Shown in pieces: positions 4,803-9,246 of a stretch of 64,000 nt of DNA. A program made the translations under genes and the position numbers. How positions within the stretch are numbered: position 1 is the stretch's first letter; each line of letters starts with the position of its first letter. Source of the DNA: Flavobacteriales bacterium UBA952 (GTDB lineage Bacteria > Bacteroidota > Bacteroidia > Flavobacteriales_D > Crocinitomicaceae); contig CAJJBU010000007.1 of assembly GCA_905182495.1 (NCBI GenBank), positions 29,238 to 93,237 of the forward strand. Direction: 5' to 3'. Below the pieces are notes generated by a model. It was not told where the DNA came from, made no database searches, and worked only from the letters and a program-made list of their open reading frames with translations.

Positions 4803-5471
4803 ATGAGCAATAAATCAATCCTGGTCGTTGATGATGACGAAGACATCAGAAGTCTTTTAACCTATAATATTGATAAAGCAGGATATGATGTTGATGCCGC
4901 ATCCAATGGCGTTGAATGCCTTGAAAAAATTAAAAAAAATAAGCCCAATTTAATTCTAATGGATGTCATGATGCCTGAGATGGATGGGCTAGAGGTTTGT
5001 GAGCAAATAAAATCGAACCCTACTAATTCTGACATACTCATCTGTTTTTTAACCGCTCGCGGCGAAGATTACAGTCAAATCGCTGCTCTCGAAGCAGGAG
5101 GAGATGATTACGTAACAAAGCCTATTAAACCAAAAGTGCTACTAAGCAGAATCAATGCCTTACTGAGAAGAACCGGAAATAATAGCTCACCTCTTCTACA
5201 AGCGAGTATTCGTATTGATTATAATAAATATATCGTTTATAAAAATGGTGATGAAATTTTATTACCCAAAAAAGAATTTGAATTAATTTCATTATTGGCA
5301 TCAAAACCTTGCCATGTTTTTAGAAGAAGTGAAATACTAAATGCAGTCTGGGGCACTGATATCATCGTTGGAGACAGAACCATAGACGTGCATATAAGAA
5401 AACTTAGACGCAAGCTAGGAGAAGAATGTATTGCAACAGTCAAAGGAGTCGGATACAAATTGATTCAATAA
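4803..5471 (+). CDS. OmpR/PhoB-family response regulator
   Basis: 222 aa; 'ILVVDDDEDIRSLL..LILMDVMMPEMDG..LTARGED..GGDDYVTKPI' plus winged helix 'VGDRTIDVHIRKLRRKLG'. Confidence 0.93.
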   Translation: MSNKSILVVDDDEDIRSLLTYNIDKAGYDVDAASNGVECLEKIKKNKPNLILMDVMMPEMDGLEVCEQIKSNPTNSDILICFLTARGEDYSQIAALEAGGDDYVTKPIKPKVLLSRINALLRRTGNNSSPLLQASIRIDYNKYIVYKNGDEILLPKKEFELISLLASKPCHVFRRSEILNAVWGTDIIVGDRTIDVHIRKLRRKLGEECIATVKGVGYKLIQ

Positions 5472-5481
5472 TTATATAAGT

Positions 5482-5573
5482 AAAAAAACACTGCCTAAAA
5501 AAGCAGTGTTTAGTGTGATTGAGTTATAGTCTTAGTGTTACTTTGACGTTACATGATTTCATAAAGTTGCATC
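5482..5573 (-). ncRNA. Array unit 1: putative sRNA with intrinsic terminator
   Basis: Minus strand: GATGCAACTTTATG...ACACTAAGACTATAACTCAATCACACTAAACACTGCTTTTTTAGGCAGTGTTTTTTTA; stem-loop + U tract. Confidence 0.6.
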
Positions 5574-5648
5574 GGACATAAAACTTTCTTAATAATCATC
5601 TCCAGACACTATTTTTAATAGCTTGATCTATCTCATTATTTATTCCAT

Positions 5649-5745
5649 AAAAAAACACTGCTCAAAAAGCAGTGTTTTGAGTGATTGAGATATAGTCTTA
5701 GTGATAAGAAGACTTCATTCGGTTTCACTAAGATGTACGGGACAC
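5649..5745 (-). ncRNA. Array unit 2: putative sRNA with intrinsic terminator (diverged 5' end)
   Basis: Minus strand: ...TATCACTAAGACTATATCTCAATCACTCAAAACACTGCTTTTTGAGCAGTGTTTTTTTATGGAATAAATAATGAG. Confidence 0.55.
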
Positions 5746-5812
5746 AAAACATTCATTACAAGCTTCTCTCTTCAAAATGTAAAGAGATCGATAAGCCTAC
5801 TATTTATTCCAT

Positions 5813-5913
5813 AAAAAAAACACTGCTTAGAAAAGCAGTGTTTTGAATGTTTGAGTTGTTGAGTATAAAGTCTTAGCACAATCATGACGTTACTCCAAAT
5901 ATAAAAGTTGCAC
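5813..5913 (-). ncRNA. Array unit 3: putative sRNA with intrinsic terminator
   Basis: Minus strand: GTGCAACTTTTATATTTGGAGTAACGTCATGATTGTGCTAAGACTTTATACTCAA...AACACTGCTTTTCTAAGCAGTGTTTTTTTTATGGAATAAATA. Confidence 0.6.
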
Positions 5914-5988
5914 CCATCACAAAAAAAACCTAAAAATTAGTCACTTCGCAAACCATTAGAAAGTCCATGCGCTCATTATTTATTCCAT

Positions 5989-6092
5989 AAAAAAAACACT
6001 GCTTAAAAAAGCAGTGTTTAAAAAGTTTGAGTACTTGAGTTTAGAGTCTTAGTGTTATTATGACGAAATTTAATTCCATAAAGTTGCATCAC
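5989..6092 (-). ncRNA. Array unit 4: putative sRNA with intrinsic terminator
   Basis: Minus strand: GATGCAACTTTATGGAATTAAATTTCGTCATAATAACACTAAGACTCTAAACTCAAG...AACACTGCTTTTTTAAGCAGTGTTTTTTTTATGGAATAAATAATGAG. Confidence 0.6.
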
Positions 6093-6136
6093 TTATAAAT
6101 AATTATTTTGTGATCAAATTTTAAAAAAATTAGGGC

Positions 6137-6230
6137 AAAAAAAACACTCCTCGAAAGCAGTGTTTAATTTTATATTGAGTTATAGTATTAGCATAATAAA
6201 GACGAAGTACTAAATCTAAAAGTTGCATAA
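6137..6230 (-). ncRNA. Array unit 5: putative sRNA with intrinsic terminator (imperfect stem)
   Basis: Minus strand: TATGCAACTTTTAGATTTAGTACTTCGTCTTTATTATGCTAATACTATAACTCAATATAAAATTAAACACTGCTTTCGAGGAGTGTTTTTTTT. Confidence 0.55.
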
Positions 6231-6292
6231 GGTGGTCTCGATTTAAAAAAGTCTAAGAAAACTCGCAAGTAAAATGAGATTTGTTGTAAAAC

Positions 6293-6390
6293 CAAAAACA
6301 CCGCTCGTTTGCGGTGTTTTCAATGATAAGAGTAAAAATGTTTTAAGTTTCATAAAAGAGACGCATCTTCATTTATAAAAGTTGCATTGA
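6293..6390 (-). ncRNA. Array unit 6: putative sRNA with intrinsic terminator (compensatory stem change)
   Basis: Minus strand: CAATGCAACTTTTATAAATGAAGATGCGTCTC...GAAAACACCGCAAACGAGCGGTGTTTTTGG; stem ACACCGC/GCGGTGT instead of ACACTGC/GCAGTGT. Confidence 0.55.
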
Positions 6391-6435: not shown

Positions 6436-8071
6436 ATGAAAAATGTTTGCTTTTTTACTCTTTTATTAATGACGTTTTCTGTGAACAGTCAAAAGAAGAC
6501 GCCTAAAATCATAATAGGTATTGTCATTGATCAAATGTGTTATGATTACCTATACCGGTTTCAAAATAATTTTTCCGAAAATGGATTTAAAAAATTAATG
6601 AGTAGAGGAAGCCATTTAAAAGACATGCAATACAATTACATACCCACCTACACTGGACCCGGGCATGCATCTATTTACACAGGGACAACACCTAAAAACC
6701 ATGGCATTATTGCCAATGCTTGGATTGAAGAATCCTCTAAAAGCATTGTTAATTGCGTTGGAGACCCTTCTGTTGAGGGGATTCAAAGTAGCCAACTGTA
6801 TGGTAAATCATCTCCACATAGACTAAATACAACAACGATAACCGACCAACTAAAAGACAAGCACAAAGAGTCTAAGGTAATATCGATATCCATAAAAGAC
6901 CGTGGGGCCATATTGCCCGGAGGATTCAAAAGCGATGGGAGTTATTGGTTCGATTACGGTAATGGTCAATTCATCACCAGTAGTTACTATAAAACTGAAA
7001 TGCCCAAATGGGTGAAAAAATTTAATGCAAAAAACAATGCGCTAAGTTATGCTCAAGTTTGGAATCCCCTTTTGGTGAAAAACAGCTACAGCTCGGAAGA
7101 TGCTAGCCCCTATGAAAAAGTCATAAATGGCAAAAGCGCTGCCGTTTTTCCTTATGATATAAAAAAGTTATGTGACTTAAGTCAAAGCTTTGAACCTTTT
7201 ACGATGTCGCCTTTTGCAAATAACTTATTAACTGATTTAGCGATTACCGCTCTCAAAAAAGAAAAACTAGGCCAAGATGAATTCCCTGACATGTTGTGTA
7301 TTAGCTATTCTTCAACAGATATTGCCGGACATGTCTTTGGTCCTGACTCTAAGGAAATTGAGGATATGTATTACAGATTGGATATCGAATTGGGGCGTCT
7401 TTTAAACCACTTAGAAAAATCATTTGGTCAAGATGGTTTTGTATTATTTCTTACTGCCGATCATGGTGTCGCAACGGTGCCTCAAAAAAGAGTAGATGAA
7501 GGCTTGAGTGGAGGCTATGTTTTTATTGACAAAGTCGTACCAAGACCTCCGCAAAAGAAGTAATACTTTATTTGGCGTCGATTTTATTTTAGGTGAAAAC
7601 AATTTAAACATCTATTTAAACCAAGGGGTGTTGAATTCTATCCTTCCTAAAGTTTCCAAGAACTTATTAATGACACAATTAGAAGAGCAGCTTTCAAAAG
7701 TCAAAGGAATAAAGACGACAAGAAGAGGCGAATCATTGCAATCAAAAAGTAAGAATGAAGACAAATGGGACCGTTTACTTGCTAATGGTTTTGACCCAAA
7801 CAGAAGCGGTGACCTCCTGATTGTATTAGAGTCGGGGTATTTACCGAAATCCAGTATCGACTTGCACCATGCCCAAGGGACCTCGCATGGGTCTGGTTAT
7901 GATTACGACACGCATGTGCCGTGTATCTGGTATGGAGCTGGGATCAAAAGTCAGGAAGTCCTTGAGTCCACAAACATTACTGATATAGCACCGACACTTC
8001 GCGAAATATTAAACCTACCTAAAACGGGTCAAATGACCGGCAAACCAATTGATGCCATTCTGAATCATTAA
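6436..8071 (+). pseudogene. Alkaline phosphatase family protein (PafA/type I phosphodiesterase-like), disrupted by a frameshift at about 7545-7560
   Basis: ORFs 6436..7563 and 7508..8071 are the N- and C-terminal parts of one phosphatase: 'IDQMCYDYLYRF', 'YTGPGHASIYTGTTPKNHGI', 'FLTADHGVATVP', then 'HGSGYDYDTHVPCIWYGAGIKS..TDIAPTL'. The continuation (KRSNTLFGVDFILGENNLNIYLNQ) is in the +1 frame. Confidence 0.85.
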
Positions 8072-8081
8072 GCACATAAGC

Positions 8082-9246
8082 ATGGATAATCAAAAAATCT
8101 TCTTAGACCATTTGGGGCAGACAACTACGCACCCGCTTCTTATAGAAGTAGACCATGCAGATGGGATCTACATATTCGATAAGAAAGGAAAGAAGTACAT
8201 GGACATGATTGCCGGGATTGCAGTAAGTAGCTTGGGTCACGGGAATCAAAGAATTAAGGACGCTCTCAAAAAACAAATTGACAAACACCTCCATGTGATG
8301 GTATATGGGGAATTTGTTCAAGAATCTCAAGTTCAACTTTCCATTAACTTAAGAAAACTGCTTCCCGAAAAACTCGATGGCCTTTATATTGTAAACTCAG
8401 GTACAGAGGCTATTGAAGCTGCCATTAAATTATGCAAAGCACACACAGGAAGAAAAGAGCTTGTCTCCTTTAAAGGGGCTTACCATGGGAGCACAAACGG
8501 CGCTTTGAGTATCTCAAGTAACGAAAAAAGAAAGGAAAATTTCAGACCCTTATTACCTAATATTGAATTTATTGAGCTCAATAATATAAATAGCCTTGAA
8601 TCCATTACAACAAGAACTGCGGGCGTATTTATGGAGACCATACAAGGGGATGCAGGCGTTCAGATTCCAACGCTTAATTTTATGCAAAAACTGCGTAAAA
8701 AATGTGACGAAACCGGAGCGTTATTGGTTTTAGACGAAATTCAATGTGGCCTTGGTCGAACTGGAAAAAACTTTGCTTTTGAGCATTTCAATATTGTTCC
8801 AGATCTACTTACCTTAGGGAAATCATTAGGTGGAGGATTGCCTATAGGCGCATTAATCGCACCGCAAAAAACATTAGCAACATTTAGTACCAATCCAGAG
8901 CTTGGCCACATTACGACTTTTGGCGGCCACCCATTGACTGCAGCGGCTTCGGCAGAATTTTGCGCTATTCTAAAAGGTGATATTGATTTAGAAGATTCAA
9001 TATCAATCTATGAAAGAGGTGAGGCTTTAAAGTCTCATTGTGAATCAAAATTAGAGAAAGCTAAAATGAAGGTTGATAAAATTATTACTCAGAGTAGTCG
9101 CTAATTGCTTAGAAAGGGGGTTGATCTTATTTTGGTTCCTATCTCACCCCAACAGTTTTCGACTGTCGCCCCCCTTAACAATTACCGAATCTGAAATTAT
9201 TAAGGCAGGAAAGATCATCTGCAAAGCGATAGACGAAAGTATTTAA
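8082..9246 (+). pseudogene. Class III (aspartate) aminotransferase family protein, disrupted near 9085-9100 (frameshift plus apparent internal deletion)
   Basis: 8082..9104: PLP aminotransferase '[74 protein letters not shown]'; C-terminus continues in another frame as [51 protein letters not shown] ending at 9246. Confidence 0.8.

Follow-up and report, generated by a model that had tools for sequence, protein, structure and literature searches.

Between a response-regulator gene and a phosphatase gene, a 64,000-nucleotide stretch of DNA (the window) carries a tandem array of six units on its minus strand, which we consider likely to be promoter-sRNA-terminator cassettes serving as the noncoding arm of an ECF surface or envelope regulon. 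The source genome is a marine Crocinitomicaceae assembly. Each cassette would start with an ECF-sigma-type promoter (-35 TGCAAC, 17-bp spacer, -10 CGTC), and transcription beginning about 7 nt downstream of CGTC would give a very short RNA in which a G-poor open arm leads directly into an intrinsic terminator. The cassettes diverged into subtypes with an order kept across species (types A, C, D, and B, and in a sister clade types E and F), and they would probably be induced together with secreted surface-protein genes bearing the same promoter. For the RNAs themselves we infer base pairing in trans as the most likely mode of action, with the conserved 5′ arm pairing close to the beginning of mRNAs that encode envelope or secreted proteins, comparable to sigma-E-dependent sRNAs.

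Layout of the array and its neighbors

The initial annotation had described six diverged units on the minus strand without a CDS, a layout that was confirmed by mapping the -35 boxes. The hexamers, all on the minus strand, start at window positions 5571, 5737, 5912, 6088, 6227, and 6386, corresponding to unit-to-unit spacings of 166, 175, 176, 139, and 159 nt, and no ORF of at least 60 amino acids was found between the end of the response-regulator gene at 5471 and the start of the phosphatase gene at 6436. Alignment of the six units also reproduced the conserved 5′ segment, TGCAACTTT, in five of them, the middle segment ACTAAGACT...ACTCAA, which is largely kept in units 1 to 5, the common terminator, and the downstream flank shared by U2, U3, and U4. 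As listed in Table 1, each cassette has a terminator and a promoter of its own, the latter decayed in U2, and by its sequence is an independent transcription unit. The body and terminator of U2 are intact, but its RNA is probably little transcribed.

Table 1. Features of the array and its syntenic anchors (positions in the window)
Feature	Position	Strand	Remarks
U6 promoter, type A	6360..6386	-	-35 TGCAAC 6381-6386, -10 CGTC 6360-6363
U6 predicted RNA, type A	6294..6352	-	~59 nt, open arm and terminator; start predicted
U5 promoter, type D	6201..6227	-	-35 6222-6227, -10 6201-6204
U5 predicted RNA, type D	6137..6193	-	~57 nt, imperfect terminator stem
U4 promoter, type B	6062..6088	-	-35 6083-6088, -10 6062-6065
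U4 predicted RNA, type B	5989..6054	-	~66 nt
U3 promoter, type B	5886..5912	-	-35 5907-5912, -10 5886-5889
U3 predicted RNA, type B	5813..5878	-	~66 nt
U2 decayed promoter, probably inactive	5711..5737	-	TACATC-N17-AGTC
U2 RNA body and terminator, type B	5649..5703	-	intact
U1 promoter, type B	5545..5571	-	-35 5566-5571, -10 5545-5548
U1 predicted RNA, type B	5483..5538	-	~56 nt
OmpR/PhoB-type response regulator	4803..5471	+	syntenic anchor
PafA-like phosphatase, N-terminal part	6436..7563	+	frameshifted; syntenic anchor

Two peculiarities were observed in the neighboring genes. The PafA-like phosphatase (6436-8071) is read in two frames that are split near 7508-7563, and intact genes encoding 541 to 544 amino acids are present in the congeneric genomes G018, G028, and G102; the split is either a real lesion or a sequencing or assembly error. 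A class-III aminotransferase (8082-9104) is without its usual C-terminal part and continues in frame into an exonuclease VII small-subunit (XseB) domain (Pfam E 4.5e-10); its counterpart in G018 and G028 is an aminotransferase of 395 amino acids. The arrangement reflects either a gene fusion or a chimeric assembly.

The probable promoter motif TGCAAC-N17-CGTC

All intact units carry TGCAAC and CGTC (CGTT in one case), matching the AAC of the -35 region and the CGT of the -10 region of ECF sigma promoters (PMC4153023). A CGT -10 box has also been assigned to ECF promoters in Flavobacterium psychrophilum (PMC9723704). The second invariant box, CGTC, located exactly 17 nt after TGCAAC, had been missed in the initial annotation. 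When CGT[C/T] was accepted anywhere from 12 to 26 nt after TGCAAC, the gap was exactly 17 nt in 41 of 41 units of the congeneric arrays, a set in which U2 of the window is counted through its decayed boxes TACATC and AGTC. A larger set of 62 units from 14 genomes was gathered with the 17-nt gap as criterion and is therefore no further test of spacing. The 17-nt spacer itself is variable, with 54 to 76% identity between genomes. Exact matches to TGCAAC-N17-CGTC occurred five times in the 64-kb window, all within the array, and with at most one mismatch nine matches were found versus 1.8 expected, a number reached in none of 100 shuffles.

Since a promoter motif should precede genes, its occurrence elsewhere served as an independent test. 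In array genomes and congeners the motif was found 19 to 30 nt before the start codons of secreted proteins (choice-of-anchor-L, GEVED). The window's genome has two matches with the 17-nt spacing outside the array, one of them ~30 nt upstream of what is likely the start of a choice-of-anchor-L protein (L158; NCBIfam E 1.8e-58), the other 28 nt upstream of a GEVED protein (L159). In G018, G027, and G034 it is located exactly 23 nt before the ATG of orthologous secreted proteins, which share the N-terminal region FCNNGTSSE, the G034 protein also having a GEVED domain. An extended motif yielded 57 rows (with some units listed twice) in 90 congeneric genomes, compared to 2 for the reversed control. 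A near-identical version was present in 14 genomes; the four of them that were read, all array-less congeners, have it 19 nt upstream of the gene of a choice-of-anchor-L-like secreted protein, one of which was tested with NCBIfam (E 2e-62). A further genus of the family has the motif as well, 26 nt upstream of a secreted protein (L293). These short distances to the start codon fit transcription beginning about 7 nt downstream of CGTC. Several further exact matches lie inside genes, and thus not every match marks a promoter. The array offers a promoter code, TGCAAC-N17-CGTC, and with it a candidate regulon of surface proteins.

These results change the role of GATGCAACTTTTA, which had been regarded as the unpaired 5′ seed of the RNAs. 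It is very probably the -35 box of an ECF-type promoter and, being part of a promoter that also stands directly before protein genes, is very probably not transcribed; the target search proposed for it would have started from the wrong sequence. In the earlier model, an sRNA of ~90 to 105 nt, transcribed from primary-sigma promoters located further upstream, would carry GATGCAACTTTTA as its 5′ seed. Such a model could draw on the AT-rich upstream DNA and on the partial complementarity of GATGC and GCGTC, which would allow a hairpin at the 5′ end, but the boxes are invariant rather than covarying, have a fixed spacing, and precede protein-coding genes, so that a promoter was preferred over an RNA hairpin. 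In G032, moreover, GATGCAAC directly follows the terminator of the unit before it, and a separate promoter would hardly fit in between. A primary-sigma promoter (TAnnTTTG) upstream of GATGCAAC was rejected, as inspection by eye of the aligned units revealed no shared -7/-33 boxes. We consider the earlier model very improbable. The array also illustrates that a promoter box may pass for an RNA seed if the comparison is limited to paralogs of a single genome.

The genomes contain 12 to 14 candidate sigma genes each. Assignment of a cognate ECF factor via autoregulation was rejected, as none of the sigma-factor genes inspected had a strict match to the motif upstream. One ECF sigma gene is preceded by GGCAAC-N16-CGTT, 16 nt before the start in three of three genomes inspected (L205, L206, L207); this box is related to the array motif but differs from it, and it suggests that the gene is autoregulated. 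For a primary-sigma-like gene (MRQLKIAKQVTNRETASLDKY), TCCAAC-N16-CGTC was seen 22 nt upstream of the start in three genomes (L195, L196, L199), which suggests ECF-type control of the housekeeping sigma gene.

Structure, constraint, and evolution of the predicted RNAs

Reading TGCAAC and CGTC as promoter boxes places the predicted RNA start ~7 nt after CGTC, and counted from there the RNAs have a length of 53 to 74 nt across the genus and of ~55 to 66 nt in the window. They consist of a G-poor 5′ arm, unpaired in the predicted folds, followed by the terminator. This arm corresponds to what had been called the middle segment (ACTAAGACTnTnAACTCAA). The hairpin and U tract reported for the units were supported by folding: five of the six window RNAs had better folds than any of the 200 shuffled sequences (z -3.6 to -4.6), and U5 with its imperfect stem gave a weaker fold (z -2.2).

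When units of the same type were compared between genomes, identity amounted to 96 to 100% in the boxes, 77 to 92% in the RNA bodies, and 74 to 98% in the terminators; the corresponding values were 33 to 61% for the upstream flanks and 44 to 68% for the first six bases after CGTC. Sequence constraint hence sits where a promoter-arm-terminator model would expect it, and shared ancestry could be the source of part of the conservation of the RNA bodies. Being conserved as well as unpaired in the predicted folds, the arm has the features of an accessible seed region. Both halves of the terminator stems have changed at the same positions with pairing retained, a pattern seen within type B, within type D, and between types in direct pair counts uncorrected for relatedness. 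The compensatory change described for U6 (CACCGC/GCGGTG versus CACTGC/GCAGTG) proved to be real and to be one of many across species.

This pattern also bears on the idea that the array acts as DNA or by being transcribed, through titration of a sigma factor or interference with the neighboring genes, the RNAs being by-products. It would agree with up to six strong promoter matches in less than 1 kb and with the location of the array between two coding genes, converging on the response regulator and pointing away from the phosphatase. However, titration or interference requires neither conserved RNA bodies nor covarying terminators, both of which are conserved, and we regard this idea as improbable.

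The type A arm (6294-6352 in the window, and its orthologs) reads MKLKTFLLLS, a signal-peptide-like sequence, where an ATG is present. A small peptide was rejected because the start codon is not kept (ATG, TTG, ACG, or GGA), whereas the nucleotides are; the arm may hint at an origin in the 5′ region of a gene for a secreted protein.

Outside the window, the closest named record was Crocinitomicaceae bacterium TMED16, with a response regulator of 77% identity and five units. The array is located at the response regulator-phosphatase junction in G018, G028, G032, G034, G081, G102, and probably G083, and further arrays or parts of them, often at contig ends, were found in G020, G027, G077, G084, G090, and G104. 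Most array-less congeners inspected have a different secreted-protein gene ~10 to 45 bp after the response regulator, and the array is therefore a trait of one part of the genus. In the direction of transcription, the order of units is A-C-D-B-B in G018, G020, G028, G034, G084, and G102, A-C-D-B-B-B in G104, and A-D-B-B-B-B in the window, most simply explained if the window's lineage lost C and acquired B units. In a second group, a sister clade comprising G032, G077, G081, G083, and G090, an F unit is followed by E units; those of G032 are packed at 110 to 113 nt, with the U tract of one adjoining the next -35 box. The order of unit types is stable across species, and spacers and flanks drift. 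Fourteen genomes of one genus record how these very small putative sRNAs were duplicated, decayed (U2), and diverged into subtypes. The proposal of a sibling sRNA family holds with respect to the duplication of whole modules, a promoter (decayed in U2) and a terminator for each member, and conservation at orthologous loci, where the stems are kept with compensatory changes; the part that had to be given up is the seed role of GATGCAACTTTTA.

A known repeat or cis element (REP-like, attenuator, or leader) or a chance series of terminators is exceedingly improbable as an explanation. The hairpins are indeed partly bidirectional, and the last one, in U1, lies next to where the convergent response-regulator gene ends and may serve this gene as well. 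Yet a DNA search of the window's own genome revealed no second full copy of the array, and a dispersed REP-like repeat, of which many copies would be expected, was rejected. There is furthermore no downstream gene on the same strand to attenuate, and the unit order is conserved at orthologous loci. The Rfam search proposed earlier gave nothing at the gathering cut-off and, when the threshold was relaxed, no more than weak matches of a kind expected by chance, so the array is not a known Rfam family.

In G084 and G104, a small ORF was observed between two sRNA units (L264, ~1950-2155; L265, minus strand, ~2310-2520). It encodes a short hydrophobic, membrane-like protein, and the one of G084 had no Pfam match.

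Possible function and comparison with known systems

Limited searches, covering exact complements and 150 start regions, yielded no convincing mRNA target. Exact complements of 11 to 13 nt outside the arrays were no commoner than controls, and the duplex energies of four of the five RNAs against the 150 start regions were no better than those of 20 shuffles. U4 scored -20.8 (best of the shuffles, -20.1), but the site is an ATG inside the frameshifted phosphatase gene and was dropped as a target for this reason. Hfq (PF17209) was not detected in five of five genomes, some of which are incomplete MAGs; with the same search, five of the 14 control genomes gave a match, E. coli among them.

These findings could be taken to mean that the RNAs, transcribed from ECF-type promoters, are protein ligands or sponges titrating an RNA-binding protein (e.g., an RRM protein) or another RNA. 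Several near-identical copies of an unpaired, G-poor arm would suit such a function, as would the outcome of the target and Hfq searches, the latter in five genomes. We nevertheless consider it unlikely, as distinct subtypes are separately conserved across species, which suggests several specificities rather than one motif. For the preferred noncoding arm of an ECF regulon, a broader scenario is conceivable, which we put forward tentatively: in a clade of marine Bacteroidota that has no detectable Hfq, one evolving array of minimal sRNA cassettes would form this arm, and new regulators would arise by tandem duplication and seed drift. Cassettes of ~55 to 75 nt, composed of a seed and a terminator, would then represent a visible nursery of sRNA evolution.

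Because the predicted RNAs share their promoter motif with genes for secreted surface proteins, they are best compared with the noncoding arm of an envelope response under ECF control. Such arms are known in Proteobacteria and Fusobacteria, and post-transcriptional control in Bacteroidota is barely mapped. MicA, RybB, and MicL are enterobacterial sRNAs under the control of the envelope-stress ECF sigma factor. In Fusobacterium nucleatum, FoxI and FoxJ (~156 nt) are Sigma-E-dependent sRNAs (PMC11005410). The array would resemble both systems as a noncoding arm of an ECF sigma factor with more than one sRNA per regulon and shared as well as distinct targets. Those sRNAs, however, are encoded at separate loci, are proven transcripts, and have porin targets, whereas the array comprises up to six tandem cassettes with putative targets and predicted RNAs shorter than FoxJ.

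Within the order of the array host, Rfp11 of F. psychrophilum is a putative sRNA with an ECF-type promoter (SM6, CGT -10 box), listed beside T9SS component genes (PMC9723704); it is a single RNA rather than an array. FopS of Bacteroides thetaiotaomicron, a family of 14 paralogous sRNAs, represses translation of a SusC-like transporter (PMC11697453). It is a multicopy family from the Bacteroidota with the same architecture as the array RNAs, an open 5′ stretch followed by a terminator, but its genes occupy many loci and have primary-sigma promoters, whereas the array is a single tandem locus with ECF-type promoters and ordered subtypes. On the basis of promoter type and locus, two features that mark FopS besides its R1 seed, membership of the array in this family was rejected. 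PrrF1/PrrF2 and NgncR_162/163 likewise are related sRNA genes lying side by side, but these are pairs, whereas the array has up to six units and at least four subtypes in an order kept across species.
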